From NCBI GenBank assembly GCA_029226955.1, contig JAQXZA010000122.1:1-37111 (forward strand): a DNA stretch of 37,111 nt, written 5' to 3'. Positions 27,495-37,111 of the stretch are shown piece by piece. Position numbers and translations under genes: made by a program. Each line of letters begins with the position of its first letter. Within the stretch, counting starts at the first letter, position 1. Below the pieces are notes generated by a model. It saw nothing but the letters and a program-made list of their open reading frames with translations. It was not told the DNA's origin and did no database searches. The DNA is from Clostridia bacterium (GTDB taxonomy: Bacteria > Bacillota > Clostridia > Oscillospirales > Acutalibacteraceae).

Positions 27495-27543
27495 AATTCT
27501 ATTATGTGATTATGATTAAGAAATGTCAGGGGGAATATATATT

Positions 27544-28737
27544 ATGAAAATATGTGCGTCGTGCGGTGCGTCAATACCTGATGAAGCGGCATTTTGCGTA
27601 TCGTGCGGTTCAAAGGAATTTTTGCAAGAGAATTTTTCAGCAAATCAATATCAAGACCCGAATGTTCAGCAGTACGGATATGCTCAACAATACCAAGACC
27701 CGAATGTTCAGCAGTACGGATACGCTCAACAATACCAAGACCCGAACGCTCAGCAGTATGGATACGCTCAACAATACCAAGACCCGAATGTTCAGCAGTA
27801 CGGATATGCTCAACAATATCAAGACCCGAATGTTCAGCAGTACGGCTATGCTCAGCAATATCAAGACCCGAATGTTCAGCAGTACGGATATGCTCAGCAA
27901 TATCAAGACCAAAATACTCAGCAGTATGAATACACTCAGCAATACCAAGACCAAAATGCACAGCAGTATGAATACACTCAGCAATATCAAGACCAAAATA
28001 CTCAACAGTATGAATACACAGAACAACATCAAGACCAAAATACCCAGCAGTATGAATACACAGAACAACATCAAGACCAAAATACTCAACAATATGAATA
28101 CACCGAGCAGAAACAGGTTCAGAATAAACAGCCGTCAGAGCCGAAAAAAGAAACAGTTCCCGAACCTGAAAATAAAGGTCAGGCAACTATTGATAAACAG
28201 AATTATCACGAGGATTCAAAGCATTTCAAATTTGAGAAAAAATCTGATAACACAGATGAAAATGAAGATGATGACACAGATAATAAAAGCAAACCAAAAT
28301 CAATAAAAGAATTTATCGAACAGCTTATGGACACCAAGGACTGTACGGCTGATTTTAACAGTGAAGATATAAATCAGAATAAAGTCATATCAATAATTGC
28401 GTGTTTCGGAATTACATTCTGGGTGTCGTTTGCGTTCAGCGGTAATTCACGATTTTCAAGATTTTATGCAAATCAGGGACTTCTTGTACTTATTGTATCG
28501 TTGATTTTCACGATACCTTTTGTACTATTTTCGTCTATTGTAAACACAGCGTGTACAGTATATACCTTTAATTTATCGTCACCGACACTCAGTCCTGTCG
28601 GATACATACTTGATTTCCTTCTGTTTGCTGTTTGTTATGCAATACCTATTTTTATGATTGTTGTGGCAATAATAAATATCCGCAGCGGAAAAGCAAAAAA
28701 TCTTCCATTTGTGGGAAATTTCCGCTTGATAAGATAA
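27544..28737 (+). CDS. Zinc-ribbon protein with 14-residue tandem repeats and C-terminal membrane domain
   Basis: The 397 residues start with a zinc ribbon (CxxC-x11-CxxC in CASCGASIPDEAAFCVSCG). Eleven tandem copies of YQDPNVQQYGYAQQ or YQDQNTQQYEYTEQ (residues 36-189) follow, then a Lys/Glu/Asp-rich linker (190-265). The C-terminal domain has about three membrane segments (from NKVISIIACFGITFWVSFAF), including RFYANQGLLVLIV, which resembles DUF4870-type domains. I chose the ATG at 27544 because AGGGGGA lies 9 nt upstream; the earlier ATG at 27523 would include it. Function is unknown. The Tyr/Gln-rich repeat may be a flexible, self-associating region. It is monocistronic and convergent with the next gene. 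Confidence 0.82.
   Translation: MKICASCGASIPDEAAFCVSCGSKEFLQENFSANQYQDPNVQQYGYAQQYQDPNVQQYGYAQQYQDPNAQQYGYAQQYQDPNVQQYGYAQQYQDPNVQQYGYAQQYQDPNVQQYGYAQQYQDQNTQQYEYTQQYQDQNAQQYEYTQQYQDQNTQQYEYTEQHQDQNTQQYEYTEQHQDQNTQQYEYTEQKQVQNKQPSEPKKETVPEPENKGQATIDKQNYHEDSKHFKFEKKSDNTDENEDDDTDNKSKPKSIKEFIEQLMDTKDCTADFNSEDINQNKVISIIACFGITFWVSFAFSGNSRFSRFYANQGLLVLIVSLIFTIPFVLFSSIVNTACTVYTFNLSSPTLSPVGYILDFLLFAVCYAIPIFMIVVAIINIRSGKAKNLPFVGNFRLIR
27649..28110 (+). repeat. Eleven tandem 42-bp coding repeats
   Basis: There are 11 exact-length units of 42 bp (462 bp). The first six encode PN(V/A)QQYGYAQQ and the last five QN(T/A)QQYEYT(Q/E)Q. The two blocks are nearly uniform inside and differ from each other, which suggests two rounds of expansion. 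There is no spacer and the units are in frame, so this is not a CRISPR array. Confidence 0.95.
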
Positions 28738-31477: not shown

Positions 31478-31506
31478 TTGATAAAAATTCAATATTAAAT
31501 TATAAT
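31478..31506 (+). promoter_or_regulatory. Promoter of the luxS operon
   Basis: TTGATA (31478-31483), 17 bp, TATAAT (31501-31506), 67 nt before the luxS ATG. The -10 box overlaps the 5' edge of the hairpin that terminates the preceding gene. Confidence 0.65.
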
Positions 31507-31538
31507 GGACATAGTGAAAGCTATGTCCGTTATTTTTT
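31503..31538 (+). terminator. Hairpin with T run between prsA and luxS
   Basis: TAATGGACATAG (31503-31514) pairs with CTATGTCCGTTA (31521-31532) using one G:T pair, followed by TTTTTT. It is a good terminator for the prsA transcript, and the same inverted repeat straddles the -10 and start site of the luxS promoter. Confidence 0.75.
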
Positions 31539-31572: not shown

Positions 31573-32034
31573 ATGAAAACAATCGCAAGTTTTAATGTAA
31601 ATCATAATTTGCTTAAAAAAGGTATGTACACATCACGCATTGACGGTGATGTCGTAACCTATGATATAAGAATGAAAATTCCAAACAATAACGATTATCT
31701 CGGCGACAATGAAATGCACACCTTTGAACATATTTTCGCAACCTATGTACGCAATACAGAATATTCGGACGATATTGTCTATGTAGGCCCTATGGGTTGT
31801 CGTACAGGATTTTATTTTCTTGTTCGTGACAGCATTAAACCCGAACAGGCAATACAGCTTGTCCGTGACTGCTTTGCATATATTGCGGATTTTACAGGGG
31901 AAATTCCCGGTGCAACAAAAATTCAGTGCGGAAACTATCTTGCACAGGATTTAGACGGTGCAAAGGCTCTTGCAAAGGATATGTGCGAGGTTCTGAAAGA
32001 CTGGAAACCTGAAAATCTTGAATACGAAAAGTAA
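31573..32034 (+). CDS. luxS: S-ribosylhomocysteine lyase
   Basis: It cleaves S-ribosylhomocysteine to homocysteine and the AI-2 precursor, as part of SAM recycling. From the ATG at 31573 (SD GGAGG 7 nt upstream) the protein has 153 residues. The metal site HTFEH gives His49, Glu52 and His53 with Cys119 in QCGNYL, and the catalytic Cys76 is in GPMGCRTGF. All key residues are present. An in-frame TTG upstream (31537) lies in the terminator and has no SD. Its stop is only 2 nt from the next start, so the radical-SAM gene is probably translationally coupled to luxS. The nucleosidase gene (pfs/mtnN) is not adjacent. Confidence 0.96.
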   Translation: MKTIASFNVNHNLLKKGMYTSRIDGDVVTYDIRMKIPNNNDYLGDNEMHTFEHIFATYVRNTEYSDDIVYVGPMGCRTGFYFLVRDSIKPEQAIQLVRDCFAYIADFTGEIPGATKIQCGNYLAQDLDGAKALAKDMCEVLKDWKPENLEYEK

Positions 32035-32036
32035 AA

Positions 32037-32711
32037 ATGTACTGGAAAAATGATACAAAAGATGATATAATTAAAACTATGAAAACAATAAATTATTCGC
32101 ATTTTGTGACAAATACGGAATTTCTCGGGCCATATAAACGGAGTGTTCTGTGGGTGCAGAAATGCTGCTTTTCTTGTGAGGGTTGTATTGCACCTGAAAT
32201 GCAGAAAGACGGCGGATATTTTGCCGATACAAAGACTCTTGCAAGTGTTCTTTTGTCCGATACTACAACAGAGGGCATAACAATAAGCGGCGGCGAACCG
32301 TTTTTACAGGCTGACGCTCTTTTTGAAATGATAAATATTATGAAAAGCAAGCGTGATACAGGTGTGATTATTTACAGCGGATTTACGCTTGACGAGTTAA
32401 AAAATAAATCCGATAGTGCGGTCGAAAAATTACTTTCTGTAACGGATATTCTCATTGACGGAAGATATGAAAAAAATCTTGATGACGGAATTGCATACAG
32501 GGGTTCTTCAAATCAGCGTATTATTTGTCTGTCAGACCGCTACAAAAAAATATCACAAACCTATTACGGACATTATGCACGAAAAACAGAACTCAAAATT
32601 GACAACGGACACATAGTTCTTGTGGGAGTGCCGTCTGAAAACACTTTAAAAGCGGTAAGAGATATTATAGATAAAGCAAGGGAGAAACAAATCAATGACA
32701 GCGGAATTTGA
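32037..32711 (+). CDS. Radical-SAM protein, NrdG-activase-like (4Fe-4S)
   Basis: The 224 residues contain the radical-SAM cluster motif C43-x3-C47-x2-C50 in KCCFSCEGC, preceded by SVLWVQK as in NrdG-type activases, and GITISGGEPFLQ (80-91) for SAM binding. The length and GGEP motif fit small activating enzymes (NrdG/PflA-like), but no ribonucleotide reductase or glycyl radical enzyme is nearby. Instead three uncharacterised proteins follow. There is no SD; the start 2 nt after luxS suggests coupling. A start at the second Met (residue 15) is possible. Its end overlaps the next gene by 17 nt. The substrate is unknown. Confidence 0.85.
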   Translation: MYWKNDTKDDIIKTMKTINYSHFVTNTEFLGPYKRSVLWVQKCCFSCEGCIAPEMQKDGGYFADTKTLASVLLSDTTTEGITISGGEPFLQADALFEMINIMKSKRDTGVIIYSGFTLDELKNKSDSAVEKLLSVTDILIDGRYEKNLDDGIAYRGSSNQRIICLSDRYKKISQTYYGHYARKTELKIDNGHIVLVGVPSENTLKAVRDIIDKAREKQINDSGI

Positions 32712-33579
32712 AATTTTCAGAAAAGACCTTATCAAACTTAATATTTACAAAGAGGTTGTTGCCGACAAGACCGTTTTGCTGGATTTTTTTCTTGACGGAA
32801 GTGCAGTCGGAACTGATTATTCTCAGGATATACACGACGAAAATATCGTTATGAACAGATACGGCTGTTTTAATATTTCAGAGGACAAGAACAGCGGAAG
32901 TATAACAATTCGTCCCGCACTTGTAAAACTCTCACTGAAAATATCCATTACTTGCCGACAGCCTTTTAATGATAATAAAACACTGACGGTTTACCGTGAC
33001 GGAAAAACAGAGGCTGAAACATCTTTTGATATTACAAATAATTGCGAGAGTATTGAGCTTATTCCCGAAAACGATAAATATATTATGAAAATAAATTACA
33101 GCGAAAATGTTTCAGATACTGAAAATACGGTTAATGCACAACAGGCAGAAACACCTGTACAAGCTGCAAATACGGTAAACAATCAACAGACGGAAACACC
33201 CATACAAACGGAAAACATTCAGCCGACAGCCGTACAAAATACGGTTCAGCCTGTTGTTGAAACGAATAATCCGCCGACACCGTCTGTTGAAAATAAGCCC
33301 GAAAATCAGAACAAAAGTACAGGGGAAATCCCACAGCAAAAACTTGACGCAATAAAAACCGAGAGTGAAAAAGATTATGAACAATATGCCGAAAAACTCG
33401 GAACAGTCAAGGCAGAATATGAATTTGACAAGTCGGTTATTGAATACTATAAAGACCACGACCTTGTGCCGATTGAAAAAATATTTGCGGAAATTGACGA
33501 AAAATTAAAGTCGGCAGAAGAACAGATTAAACTTTTCGTTGAGGCAAGACAGAACAAAACAAAAGAAATTGAGGAATAA
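32695..33579 (+). CDS. Unrecognised protein: beta-rich domain, Gln/Thr/Pro linker, coiled coil
   Basis: I do not recognise this 294-residue protein. Residues 1-135 look like a beta-sandwich (alternating strands such as KTVLLDFFLDG, SGSITIRPALVKLSLKISI, ETSFDITNN). Residues 138-215 are a low-complexity linker rich in Gln, Thr, Asn and Pro with near repeats (QQAETPVQAANTV, QQTETPIQTENI). Residues 215-294 are charged and helical, probably coiled coil. There is no signal peptide or membrane segment. The SD AGGGAG is about 10 nt upstream. It overlaps the radical-SAM gene by 17 nt and precedes the next gene by 16 nt, so it is firmly within the cassette. Confidence 0.75.
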   Translation: MTAEFEIFRKDLIKLNIYKEVVADKTVLLDFFLDGSAVGTDYSQDIHDENIVMNRYGCFNISEDKNSGSITIRPALVKLSLKISITCRQPFNDNKTLTVYRDGKTEAETSFDITNNCESIELIPENDKYIMKINYSENVSDTENTVNAQQAETPVQAANTVNNQQTETPIQTENIQPTAVQNTVQPVVETNNPPTPSVENKPENQNKSTGEIPQQKLDAIKTESEKDYEQYAEKLGTVKAEYEFDKSVIEYYKDHDLVPIEKIFAEIDEKLKSAEEQIKLFVEARQNKTKEIEE

Positions 33580-33595
33580 ATTTCAGAGGTAGCTT

Positions 33596-35074
33596 ATGTC
33601 ACAACAGGTTGCACAACTTCAGAATCAGATTGATTCACTTCAAAATCAGCTTAAAAGTCAAAAACGCCAGATGGAAACAATGCGTCAGAGTATGGCTGAG
33701 GAAAACCGTAAAAAATTACAGGAACTCCGTCAGGAAATGGCGAAAAGCGGTACAAATGAACAGGTCAGAAATGAATATAAACGTTTGCTGAATGAATATA
33801 TTCAGAGTATGAATGATGATGTACAGAACCGCTTTGTCAGCGTTAATGCCGATTATCAGCGGCTTGTGTCCGAAACTCAGAAAACGGAACAGGAACTGTG
33901 GGGCAAGACTCAACAGCTTGAACATCTTATAAGTGATTTGAAAACATCAACTGCCCAAAAAGAAGAGGGCAGTATGGACGAGGCACGAAATTCTCTCACT
34001 GAGGCAATAACAAAATTCAAGGAAATTCAAAGTAAACCACACGAAATGTTTGCACCAAACCGCCTTAAAATCTATTACAATTCAATCAAGGACGGACAGG
34101 AACTGTATCGTTCAGGCTTGTATGAGGCGGCAACGGCAGTAGGAATTTCTGCAAAAACCGGACTTGAACGACTCGGTTTTATCATTGATGATAAAGTTGA
34201 CGAATGGAACAGGCATTATGAATTGTTTGAATCTGAACTCGAACTTTTGATTGACAAGCTGAAAAATGAAGTCATAGAGTGGAAAAAACTCATAGACCCT
34301 AACTACAAAGGCGAAAAACTTTCAAAGGACGAACAAATTGCAAGACTTGTAGAGATAAATTTCTGGTCGGACGGACAGTACGGAAATATTTTTTCCGAAT
34401 CAAAAAAACTTGTGAAAATCGAAAAGGATATTAAGGCAGTCGGCAAGAAAAAATATCTCAAAGAAAACCCCTCAGCTATAAAAATTGACGAGCTTAAACA
34501 GAACACCGAAAAGCTGAACAAACTTGATGATAAACTTGACGAACAGTGCGAGTTTTACAAAAATTCATACAGAGCCTCTTGTGAACGTTTTGAATGGGGC
34601 GAAAAGCTGATTGATTTTCTTGAAAACGACATCAATCTTGTTTTTCACGATAAACAGTCAAACTACCGTATTGCCGACAGCGACAAGATAAATCAGCAGA
34701 ATTTCAAAAATTATGTTCTTAACCAGTTCGGTGACGAAACAATTACACAGGACGTCCGTCAGTGGCTTGAACTGACGTTTGAAAACAGCGGCGGAACATA
34801 TATCTATATTTATATTGTGCCTATCGTAAAGGATAAAAACGTCACAAACCATATTATTCTGTATGTGGATTATGACGGTGTGGTTCAGGAGGACTACACA
34901 AAGGATATTTATAATCACATAAGCGAGTGTCTTGGTCTTGCTTTTCCTGAGGACGTTATGGACTATGTAAACGATATTTCTCAGTTACAGGCAAGCAATA
35001 ACAAAACAATTCGTGAAACTGCCGGCACTCTCGTCAGACGCAAAGAAAAACGCAAAGAACAGAAAAAATCATAA
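33596..35074 (+). CDS. Unrecognised coiled-coil protein (paralogue of the next gene by layout)
   Basis: The 492-residue protein begins with a strong coiled coil (1-135, Gln/Leu/Lys heptads: LQNQIDSLQNQLKSQ). A helical middle follows with the motif YRSGLYEAATAVGISAKTGLE and DEWNRHYELF (about 175-215). A beta-rich C-terminal domain (about 355-455, with FENSGGTYIYIYIVPI and HIILYVDYDGVV) comes next, then a basic tail RRKEKRKEQKKS. No signal or membrane segment is seen. The SD AGAGGT is 5 nt upstream. The next protein shares coiled coil, Y-x-(S/K)-G-x-YE-x-A motif and EW-x2-(H/Y)-Y, so both seem to come from one ancestral architecture. Function is unknown. Confidence 0.75.
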   Translation: MSQQVAQLQNQIDSLQNQLKSQKRQMETMRQSMAEENRKKLQELRQEMAKSGTNEQVRNEYKRLLNEYIQSMNDDVQNRFVSVNADYQRLVSETQKTEQELWGKTQQLEHLISDLKTSTAQKEEGSMDEARNSLTEAITKFKEIQSKPHEMFAPNRLKIYYNSIKDGQELYRSGLYEAATAVGISAKTGLERLGFIIDDKVDEWNRHYELFESELELLIDKLKNEVIEWKKLIDPNYKGEKLSKDEQIARLVEINFWSDGQYGNIFSESKKLVKIEKDIKAVGKKKYLKENPSAIKIDELKQNTEKLNKLDDKLDEQCEFYKNSYRASCERFEWGEKLIDFLENDINLVFHDKQSNYRIADSDKINQQNFKNYVLNQFGDETITQDVRQWLELTFENSGGTYIYIYIVPIVKDKNVTNHIILYVDYDGVVQEDYTKDIYNHISECLGLAFPEDVMDYVNDISQLQASNNKTIRETAGTLVRRKEKRKEQKKS

Positions 35075-35099
35075 AATTATATTTTTCAGGAGGAAAATT

Positions 35100-36863
35100 A
35101 TGAGCGGACTTTCATTCGGGCTTATTTCACTTGTTGCATACGGTATTGCTTCAATAGCTTCCGCATCAACAAAAAGTGCAAACAAACAATCATCATCATC
35201 TGTAAGAAATACGGCGAACAGATATGAACAAACTAACCGTCAGCAACGTCAGCCAATCCAGTATTACAACGGATATTACAACAACGGCACGACAAACGCT
35301 TACAGGGGACAGGCTGTTCAGAATAATGTACAGCAGAACAGACAACAGAATGTTCGTCAGAATACACAGCAGAACAGGCAACAGAATGTTCGTCAGAACA
35401 CACAGCAAAACAGTCAACAGAATGTTCAGCAAAATACAAGACAAAACACACAGTCTTATAATAACAATTCCCGTCAGGCAAATATTCAGGCAAAGGAACA
35501 GAAACAGCTTGAAAAATATGCAAATAATCTCGGCAATCTCAGAAACGATATTCAGAGCAATATGAACCGTCAGGTTGAACTCAACCGTCAGGCGTCAGAA
35601 CAGATGATAAACGAAATTGAACAGGTAAGAGCCGAAATGCAGGCGGCATCTGAAAAAAGCCTTGAAGATTATGACGAGTATCTCGGAATTATGAAAGAAA
35701 AAAGACAAGAATTGTCCGAGAAAATTTATAGTCAGCAAGAGGCGGTAAACAGACAGTACCGTGATACAATCTCAGAAAGTATGGTTCAGATTACAACTCA
35801 GCTTAACAACAAGCATAAAGAGTATCTTGATGAGATTTCACAACTACAAAATGACATTCAGGCAAAAAACGAAAAAGCCGCCGAAATTGCAAAGTCATAT
35901 ATTGCTGAGGCACAGACAACAATCAAGTCGCTTATTGAAGATTTTGAGGGCGAAAAATACGTCGGCAGAGAACTAATCGCACTTAATGAACAGCTTAACA
36001 AGGCTATTGACCAGTACAACAAGGGTTATTACGAGAGTGCAATAGCTGCGTCAAAAGACGTTCTTATCGGAACAGTTGAAGAAATATATCACGCTGACGA
36101 GAAAAAACAGGAATGGGAAAATTACTACAAAATTGCCCTTGCATTGTCAGCCGACCTTAAAACATTTATCGACTCACAGGAAACCGTTTCACAGGATATA
36201 ATCGACAGCGTAAAAGCCGAAAAAAATGTTGAACTCAACGAGGAAATAGCCGGTACAAAAATTGCCGACTACACAGGCAAAAACTCACAGGGTGTCACAA
36301 AGTACGATTATATAAGACAAAAATCATACGAAATTGACCAAATGCTTAATTCCGACGAGGCAAAAAATCTTTCGGCAGAACAGCTCAAACAATACATTGA
36401 TTTTATCAATACACAGCTTTATCCGCAATCGGCTTGCTGTATTACAACAGGTATTCTCAATATGGACAATGCGTATTCACGACAGAATATGAGTGAAGAT
36501 ATTGTTGATTTCTTTGAGGAACATAACTTTTCTTTTGCGGGATATTCTTATGATGAAAACAGGCACGACAAGCCACTGCACGTTTATCTTTCAAACGAGG
36601 CGACAGGTGAAGAACTTGTTGTGTCGCTTGCACCGCAACAGCTTGAAAACGGTGATATTCAGACTCGTGTTGAGCTTGAACAGGTAAAGGGCGACGAAAC
36701 CAACGAGGAACGCAAGGCATATTACCGTGAATGTATAAATCAGGTTATCACTCAGAAAAACCCGGGTTCAAGCGTTAATATCCAGTGCGACAAATCAACC
36801 CTCAACAAACTTTCAAACGGCAGACAAGCCCAACAAAGACGACAGGCACAGAATAATTCGTAA
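35100..36863 (+). CDS. Unrecognised Gln/Asn-rich coiled-coil protein with N-terminal hydrophobic segment
   Basis: From the ATG at 35100 (SD AGGAGG 8 nt upstream) the product has 587 residues. Residues 4-25 are hydrophobic (FGLISLVAYGIASIASAS), so it may be membrane-anchored or exported. Residues 30-135 are prion-like, Gln/Asn/Arg-rich, with three 12-residue repeats. Residues about 136-285 form a long coiled coil. The segment YNKGYYESAIAASKDVLIG with QEWENYYK (about 310-350) mirrors the preceding protein. The C-terminal part (about 430-560) is beta-rich (HVYLSNEATGEELVVSLAP). The stop codon comes from a heptamer repeat. A frame open 29 codons earlier overlaps the previous gene and lacks an SD. 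Confidence 0.75.
   Translation: MSGLSFGLISLVAYGIASIASASTKSANKQSSSSVRNTANRYEQTNRQQRQPIQYYNGYYNNGTTNAYRGQAVQNNVQQNRQQNVRQNTQQNRQQNVRQNTQQNSQQNVQQNTRQNTQSYNNNSRQANIQAKEQKQLEKYANNLGNLRNDIQSNMNRQVELNRQASEQMINEIEQVRAEMQAASEKSLEDYDEYLGIMKEKRQELSEKIYSQQEAVNRQYRDTISESMVQITTQLNNKHKEYLDEISQLQNDIQAKNEKAAEIAKSYIAEAQTTIKSLIEDFEGEKYVGRELIALNEQLNKAIDQYNKGYYESAIAASKDVLIGTVEEIYHADEKKQEWENYYKIALALSADLKTFIDSQETVSQDIIDSVKAEKNVELNEEIAGTKIADYTGKNSQGVTKYDYIRQKSYEIDQMLNSDEAKNLSAEQLKQYIDFINTQLYPQSACCITTGILNMDNAYSRQNMSEDIVDFFEEHNFSFAGYSYDENRHDKPLHVYLSNEATGEELVVSLAPQQLENGDIQTRVELEQVKGDETNEERKAYYRECINQVITQKNPGSSVNIQCDKSTLNKLSNGRQAQQRRQAQNNS
35331..35438 (+). repeat. Three tandem 36-bp coding repeats
   Basis: Three 36-bp units encode QQNRQQNVRQNT, the same again, and QQNSQQNVQQNT. 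They lie in the Gln/Asn-rich region of the 35100 protein; the first two units are nearly identical in DNA. Confidence 0.85.
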
Positions 36864-36886
36864 TTCGTAATGCGTAATTCGTAATT
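36856..36886 (+). repeat. Heptamer repeat copy E, overlapping the stop of the last gene
   Basis: This TTCGTAA/TGCGTAA array is identical over 31 bp to 15079-15109. It begins inside the 35100 gene and supplies its TAA (36861-36863). A tail TTTTGTGTGTGGTTAGTAG follows (36888-36906). Confidence 0.85.
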
Positions 36887-36919
36887 GTTTTGTGTGTGGT
36901 TAGTAGTTGTTAAGATTTT

Positions 36920-37103: not shown

Positions 37104-37111
37104 TCAATTTT

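Follow-up and report, generated by a model that had tools for sequence, protein, structure and literature searches.

A conserved block of a radical-SAM gene and three unnamed protein families that probably belongs to a Ter-type system of anaerobic Clostridia

Here, we analyzed a group of genes close to the end of a 37,111-nucleotide (nt) stretch of DNA from a Clostridia bacterium of the family Acutalibacteraceae (assembly GCA_029226955.1); this stretch, hereafter the window, is the entire contig JAQXZA010000122.1 (C122) of a genome of 2.6 Mb in 150 contigs. Five open reading frames (ORFs), all on the + strand, were confirmed as predicted earlier, namely, luxS, a gene for a radical-S-adenosylmethionine (radical-SAM) protein (rSAM), and the genes for 3 proteins denoted P3, P4, and P5. 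Judging from the gene order in relatives, rSAM-P3-P4-P5 form one real unit. It is very likely that this unit belongs to a Ter-type system, and, on balance, we consider it probable that, in anaerobic Clostridia and some Synergistota, the 4 genes make up a conserved core within a larger Ter-type system of stress response or conflict. The original prediction took all 5 genes as a single functional unit; this part of it stands for rSAM-P3-P4-P5 but not for luxS, which appears to lie outside the unit and to have become its neighbor through rearrangement.

To collect related loci, a P5 profile made from the window's own protein and 2 relatives was searched in GTDB species genomes and yielded at least 41 contigs with P5, a lower bound because the search needs exact short peptides; by their titles, 38 of these contigs are from Clostridia and 3 from Synergistaceae or Synergistales. 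A locus enters a given synteny count only if its sequence extends far enough to be scored. L007 and L008, which duplicate L022 and L026, are excluded from the counts, and L158 and L159 were left out of the analysis; the P5 matches of 10 other genomes of the same genus lie on contigs equal in length to those of L009–L017 and L047 and add nothing independent. P4 lies ahead of P5 in 38/38 loci, P3 ahead of P4 in 34/34 (33 by script; the start codons reveal the adjacency in L029 as well, where an open segment had masked it), and rSAM ahead of P3 in 34/34. Furthermore, the 17-nt overlap of the 5′ end of P3 with rSAM, seen in the window as predicted, has counterparts in most relatives: counting the window, the rSAM stop lies within P3 in 29 of 34 rows, 22 of which have an overlap of 11 nt, with the start codons of the relatives' genes chosen by script. 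Because both the overlap and the gene order recur, the association of rSAM with P3, P4, and P5 goes beyond chance. Thus, among loci found through P5, the unknown genes do not occur mostly without the radical-SAM gene.

The conserved neighborhood extends in both directions. An AAA+ ATPase gene is located within 1.5 kb past P5 in 37/37 loci, in a few cases with one gene between, and one to seven copies of terD are found within 1.5 kb before rSAM in 29/31 loci, preceded by a P-type ATPase gene in 20 of 26. Where at least 4.5 kb after the AAA+ gene could be inspected, a kinase is encoded in 9/20 loci, a vWA protein in 10/20, and a PP2C phosphatase in 9/20. Pfam searches with the neighbors gave AAA, Pkinase, VWA, PP2C_2, TerD, and cation ATPase, and the P-type ATPase holds domains that the excerpted text of PMC12363816 lists for calcium-translocating ATPases. 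The AAA+ protein has 3 AAA stretches in L007 and 3 Walker A motifs in both L007 and the window's genome; it is shorter in L044, L046, L048, and L049. Among the less regular features of these loci, the extra genes between P5 and the AAA+ gene are metalloprotease-like in two and esterase-like in two others (L019, L021; L030, L035), the kinase matches are in tandem in L027, L031, and L043, and a cysteine synthase-like gene lies between terD and rSAM in 2 of 34 loci (L026, L028). The names metalloprotease-like, esterase-like, PrsA-like, Rrf2-like, Sir2-like, and RimP/NusA-like were all assigned by reading alone.

The Ter-type genes are invisible in the window because they lie outside it, around the unit in relatives, and the evidence on Ter biosynthetic genes likewise comes from the relatives' loci. 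Downstream of the block in Butyrivibrio sp. AC2005 (L166), Pfam identified ATPgrasp_Ter, HAD, HerA-like and FtsK-like ATPases, a further vWA-like protein, C-C_Bond_Lyase, PRTase_2 with TRSP, StiP with PELOTA_1, and TerD. Similarity to the L166 proteins places the C-C lyase, PRTase, and StiP downstream in 3/3 extended loci, the others being those of the Clostridia metagenome-assembled genome (MAG) Lapin-011 bin72 (L167) and of a Lachnospiraceae MAG (L168), whereas HAD was detected in L166 and L168, and ATP-grasp in L166 and L167. No TerB, TerC, or TelA turned up among the proteins run against Pfam, a result obtained with no dedicated search for them.

Several observations weigh against this interpretation. 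All loci were found via P5, so that the counts are conditional on P5 (rSAM given P5), and many of the contigs are closely related MAGs rather than independent events. TerD was not found within the stretch of L041 and L046, the kinase, vWA, and PP2C genes are absent from roughly half of the loci that are long enough to show them, and, by reading, the genes after PP2C in L020, L022, L024, and L028 look like housekeeping genes. The choice of the 3 loci to extend downstream was guided by their ends, where ATP-grasp, HAD, or HerA-like genes were already visible. Given that the biosynthetic genes do not come after the block in every locus and that the extended loci were selected, the Ter-type assignment has to be tempered. 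In 3 genomes of the same genus (G667, G121, and G214), terD genes are present although no P5 match was obtained, so that TerD needs no rSAM-P3-P4-P5 block. Finally, P3, P4, and P5 have no recognized relative.

In the window's own genome, the components are dispersed. The AAA+ gene is present in overlapping pieces on contigs C50 and C99; on C99, it is followed by a partial kinase, a full kinase, a vWA protein, and PP2C, whereas C34 carries the series P-type ATPase-TerD-TerD. Because C50 and C34 have other flanking genes than the window, contig ends alone do not explain the separation, and the set is split over 3 places. The partial kinase copy (L055:603-1211, on C99) directly precedes the full-length kinase gene.

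Table 1. Features at the luxS end of the window
Feature	Position	Strand	Evidence
Terminator-like hairpin with T run, 5′ of luxS	31502..31538	+	14-pair stem at 31502-31533 with 4 G-C pairs
luxS, S-ribosylhomocysteine lyase, read as a bystander	31573..32034	+	Pfam LuxS, E 6e-49
rSAM, NrdG-like with C-terminal extension; alternative start 32079	32037..32711	+	Fer4_12, E 4e-28; NrdG model
P3, predicted beta-sandwich, disordered linker, and helices	32695..33579	+	AlphaFold2; overlap with rSAM
P4, helical coiled-coil protein, homolog of P5	33596..35074	+	AlphaFold2; hhalign
P5, relative of P4, hydrophobic N-terminus starting MSG	35100..36863	+	Alignment of 37 rows
248 nt without recognized gene, up to the contig end	36864..37111	.	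ORF list

The boundaries of 2 genes merit comment. P5 most likely begins at ATG 35100 (587 amino acids) rather than at GTG 35013, because all 37 aligned rows, including the window, begin with MSG at the former position. The rSAM gene may start at ATG 32079, close to where its homologs begin; the 2-nt spacing between the luxS stop and rSAM, which agrees with the predicted coordinates, therefore hinges on the start chosen. Directly after the P5 stop, close to the contig end, the window contains short ATTCGTAAT-type repeats (36864-36890). Elsewhere in the window (27523-28737), reading of the translation revealed a protein with a zinc-ribbon-like start, followed by about 11 repeats of the YQDPNVQQYGYAQ type and, C-terminally, by a hydrophobic region.

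The luxS gene was presented in the original prediction as coupled to the radical-SAM cassette, a claim that the comparison contradicts: luxS is found in none of the 34 related rSAM-bearing loci. In the genus, 53 of the 62 genomes have a luxS match, and among the 30 such matches listed, with about 1.5 kb inspected on each side, only the window's own has rSAM beside it. In G667 and G121, the genes after luxS are Rrf2-like and Sir2-like, with 73% and 79–81% identity to the copies on C34, whereas in the window's genome these genes stand behind TerD-TerD and luxS stands in front of rSAM; a relative of the gene that precedes luxS in the window also precedes luxS in G214 and G667. The contact between luxS and rSAM looks like a rearrangement junction. 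An alternative would be that the genes constitute a luxS operon tied to autoinducer-2 or S-adenosylmethionine recycling. The two genes do share direction, and the predicted absence of a terminator among the 5 genes is upheld, in that a simple scan gave no terminator-like site on the + strand between luxS and position 37111 and a sole + site upstream of luxS (over both strands, 4 sites, no excess over shuffled sequences, mean 4.8), so that luxS and rSAM may be co-transcribed in this genome. Nevertheless, the absence of luxS from the related loci, the unique position of the window's copy among the genus matches listed, and the luxS context of G667 and G121 largely refute the operon reading, which retains next to no probability.

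The radical-SAM protein shows its highest similarity to NrdG, the activase of anaerobic ribonucleotide reductase, with scores of 95.4 and 96.1 bits, below the curated cut-off of 126.1; the Pfam match is to Fer4_12 (E 4e-28). The predicted CxxxCxxC and GGEPF motifs are borne out by the relatives: the 3 cysteines and a GVPS motif, part of a conserved C-terminal tail of the cassette proteins, are invariant in 35 rows, and GGEPF and GSSNQ are each conserved in all rows but one. One possibility is that rSAM serves as another NrdG, activating the anaerobic ribonucleotide reductase, and is located here by chance. NrdG is, indeed, the closest family, and CxxxCxxC, GGEPF, and GSSNQ are common to the cassette protein and the genome's NrdG. 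However, the genome already encodes an NrdD, its only NrdD match, adjoining an NrdG of 186.6 bits on C48, and no NrdD was found beside the cassette rSAM; furthermore, the cassette protein falls short of the NrdG cut-off, its tail after GSSNQ spans 58–68 residues in 35/35 cases compared to 24 in the NrdG of C48, and it is kept ahead of P3 throughout the loci counted. Tail length alone fails to separate the groups, because 21 phage ORFs caught by the pattern have 7–62 residues after GSSNQ. Thus, of the suggestion that rSAM might group firmly with NrdG, the top-scoring family stood and the firmness did not, and we regard a second NrdG as quite improbable. We read 38 relatives of rSAM in viral contigs as phage NrdG; in the stretches examined for P3, P4, P5, AAA+, TerD, vWA, PP2C, and P-type ATPase, but not for the kinase, none of these was detected.

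The protein also has weak matches, below cut-off, to the maturases HxsC and YydG, which might point to a maturase of ribosomally synthesized and post-translationally modified peptides (RiPPs) whose small precursor peptide would be encoded in the cluster. No RiPP maturase model scored above its own cut-off, there is no small ORF between luxS and rSAM in the window, and inspection by eye of the 12 terD-rSAM gaps longer than 120 nt, the shorter ones not being listed, revealed no shared small ORF, which speaks weakly against a precursor peptide; we consider a RiPP maturase very improbable. A modification by rSAM of one of the neighboring proteins, as put forward in the original prediction, is possible.

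The characterization of P3, P4, and P5 as uncharacterized proteins proved correct. Pfam, NCBIfam, PHROGs, and PADLOC gave no annotation, sequence searches of the PDB, whether with single proteins or with profiles, returned chiefly coiled coils and nothing convincing, and neither P3 nor P4 had a Foldseek match at E ≤ 0.001 (for P4, in the PDB). We suggest that they represent 3 new, unnamed protein families. The AlphaFold2 model of P3 (mean predicted local distance difference test score, pLDDT, 80.0) consists of a beta-sandwich (residues 1–137), a disordered linker, and helices (residues 212–293), and that of P4 (mean pLDDT 88.9) of long helices and a small alpha/beta end. P4 and P5 are homologous to each other (hhalign 98.4%, E 1e-14); their middle parts alone match at 96%, and the C-termini alone at a low 10.6%. 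Across 37 rows of P5, M1, S2, G3, and G7 are invariant, and in 38/38 proteins a hydrophobic stretch of 19 residues (mean hydropathy ≥ 1.6) starts within the first 40 residues. Such an N-terminal stretch is present in 0/38 P4 proteins, one of which has one elsewhere. These features lead us to propose that P5 is membrane-bound and P4 soluble and that the two would form one assembly. The window's P5 also carries a Q/N-rich repeat insert (at about 35310-35470) that is not found in 2 relatives aligned over their full length.

A number of candidate similarities were set aside. For P3, the best Foldseek hit was to a voltage-sensor phosphatase (E 0.005, template modeling score 0.17), followed by T-cell-receptor chains, the PHROGs 13680 and 21225 (E 0.002–0.004) matched coiled-coil stretches, and a comparison with TerD gave no match (hhalign 0.5%). 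For P4 and P5, the best match to ZorA (E 0.0026) likewise involved coiled-coil stretches. The homologs from L022 and L031 produced matches that were all below cut-offs and mostly to coiled-coil families; one P5 homolog gave a TubZ-like C-terminal match (E 0.0017).

The distribution of the block is patchy. Of the 61 genomes of the genus, 11 contain P5, and P4 is present in 3 of 250 of the family, the window's own included in each case, and in a sample of 398 genomes of the phylum, P5 was found only in the window's genome; a P4 match in G241 is actually a MutS2 protein and was dropped. No P5 was found by tblastn in plasmid and phage records. The 67.5-kb IMG/VR contig IMGVR_UViG_3300019373_000210 (L157, L162, L163) contains the set from the P-type ATPase to PP2C along with matches to terminase, portal, Dit, DnaB-like, and primase proteins and, near the tail genes, ATPgrasp_Ter, HAD, macro, and ADP-ribosylglycohydrolase genes. 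This contig was read in stretches, with about 11.6 kb between them unread, and it may be a metagenomic chimera. In the P5 tree, which, like the alignments, excludes rows that are cut or in pieces, one Synergistaceae copy (L048) groups with clostridial ones (support 91/82). The window's copy sits on a long branch whose position is insecure, and it does not fall within the 8-row clade formed by copies from its genus (L009–L016). The patchy occurrence and the phage-like carrier would fit a mobile defense or stress island.

Ter-dependent stress response systems have been described by Anantharaman, Iyer and Aravind in 2012 (cited here via excerpts of PMC7824862, PMC5822837, and PMC11090510), and share TerD and the combination of vWA, kinase, and PP2C with the loci analyzed here, as well as ATPgrasp_Ter, HAD, PRTase_2/TRSP, C-C_Bond_Lyase, and StiP/PELOTA_1 with some of the clusters. 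In the accounts excerpted, Ter systems combine synthesis of a nucleotide-like signal, sensing by TerB and TerD, and membrane and sub-membrane parts, and confer resistance to phages and xenobiotics (PMC7824862); the ter operon is linked to phage and colicin resistance and to an inner-membrane complex, and the mechanism of the Ter genes is described as unresolved (PMC5822837). Compared to these systems, the present clusters add the NrdG-like rSAM, P3, P4, P5, and the AAA+ ATPase. Among the matches listed in a search of the full-text literature, we noticed no description of this block, although the 2012 paper may mention it. The Ter-type system is known, and an oxygen-sensitive radical enzyme with 3 unnamed families is the added block.

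Other known systems share parts of the arrangement. The TerY-P triad, reported to be antiphage by Gao et al. in 2020 (as summarized in the excerpts of PMC7699616 and PMC11090510), has vWA, kinase, and PP2C side by side, as on C99 and in 9–10 of the 20 loci with room; in the window's genome, however, the triad is not beside P3-P5. In type III-A CoCoNuT systems, as excerpted from PMC11090510, a SpoVK AAA+ protein accompanies a glycine-zipper protein, so that there, as here, TerY is part of the setting and an AAA+ ATPase is encoded next to a protein whose hydrophobic segment is rich in small residues, but the CoCoNuT has tandem ATPases and a C-terminal zipper compared to the 3 AAA modules (L007 and the window's genome) and the N-terminal segment found here. 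FtsK-like ATPases of about 1200 amino acids, joined in part of these clusters by HerA-like ATPases, follow in L041, L043, L046, L166, and L167 and are reminiscent of type III-A CoCoNuT extensions. Gut huge (Jug) phages encode TerD, a calcium P-type ATPase, and NrdG, gene kinds also seen here, and the Pfam domains frequent in these phages include AAA and NRDD; the P3-P4-P5 block is unmentioned in the excerpts of the source (PMC12363816). One identification in our own loci is nominal: the vWA protein is called TerY by position, and Pfam says only VWA.

These relationships allow us to outline how the extended Ter-type system might operate. On a threat, the biosynthetic enzymes would make a nucleotide-like signal, which TerD proteins would bind, and the vWA/kinase/phosphatase triad would switch the system. 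The P5 N-terminus would insert in the membrane, P5 and P4 together would build a sub-membrane coiled-coil structure, and the AAA+ ATPase would assemble or take apart this structure. The rSAM protein, probably translationally coupled to P3, would make a radical-based modification on a partner, with P3 or P5 the first choices. This full scheme, with a protein as the substrate of rSAM, is tentative, and we hold it to be possible rather than probable. More specific, and rather unlikely as it stands, is the proposal that a radical post-translational mark, at best guess on the MSG start of P5 or on P3, arms a membrane-guarding Ter coiled-coil/AAA+ assembly against phages or envelope stress.

Within the same Ter-type system, rSAM could instead act on a small molecule and complete a nucleoside-like signal made by the PRTase, C-C lyase, HAD, and ATP-grasp enzymes. 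The biosynthetic genes are, indeed, present in some of the same clusters, and rSAM has a weak similarity (PADLOC pVip, E 1e-7) to viperins, which act on nucleotides. In addition, TerD perhaps recognizes nucleotide derivatives, according to the excerpted text of PMC7159879. Against the small-molecule substrate stand the tight association of rSAM with P3-P4-P5 in every locus counted and its overlap with P3, as well as the location of the biosynthetic genes, which, where present, are far downstream. Moreover, the best-matching family, NrdG, is known as a protein activase. We consider the small-molecule route unlikely, if by no means negligible.

The results presented here define a parts list for the question of how Ter systems work, that is, a radical enzyme, 3 unnamed families, and an AAA+ ATPase kept beside TerD. 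The presence of the block in Butyrivibrio sp. AC2005, a genome not marked as a MAG, means that this question could be tested, and the copy on the phage-like contig suggests an ability to move between hosts. Should the protein-substrate scheme be true, rSAM would be, to our knowledge, the first protein-modifying radical enzyme that is a standing part of a Ter-type system. A chemical step restricted to anaerobic conditions would then arm a Ter defense machine, to which 3 new protein families would be added.

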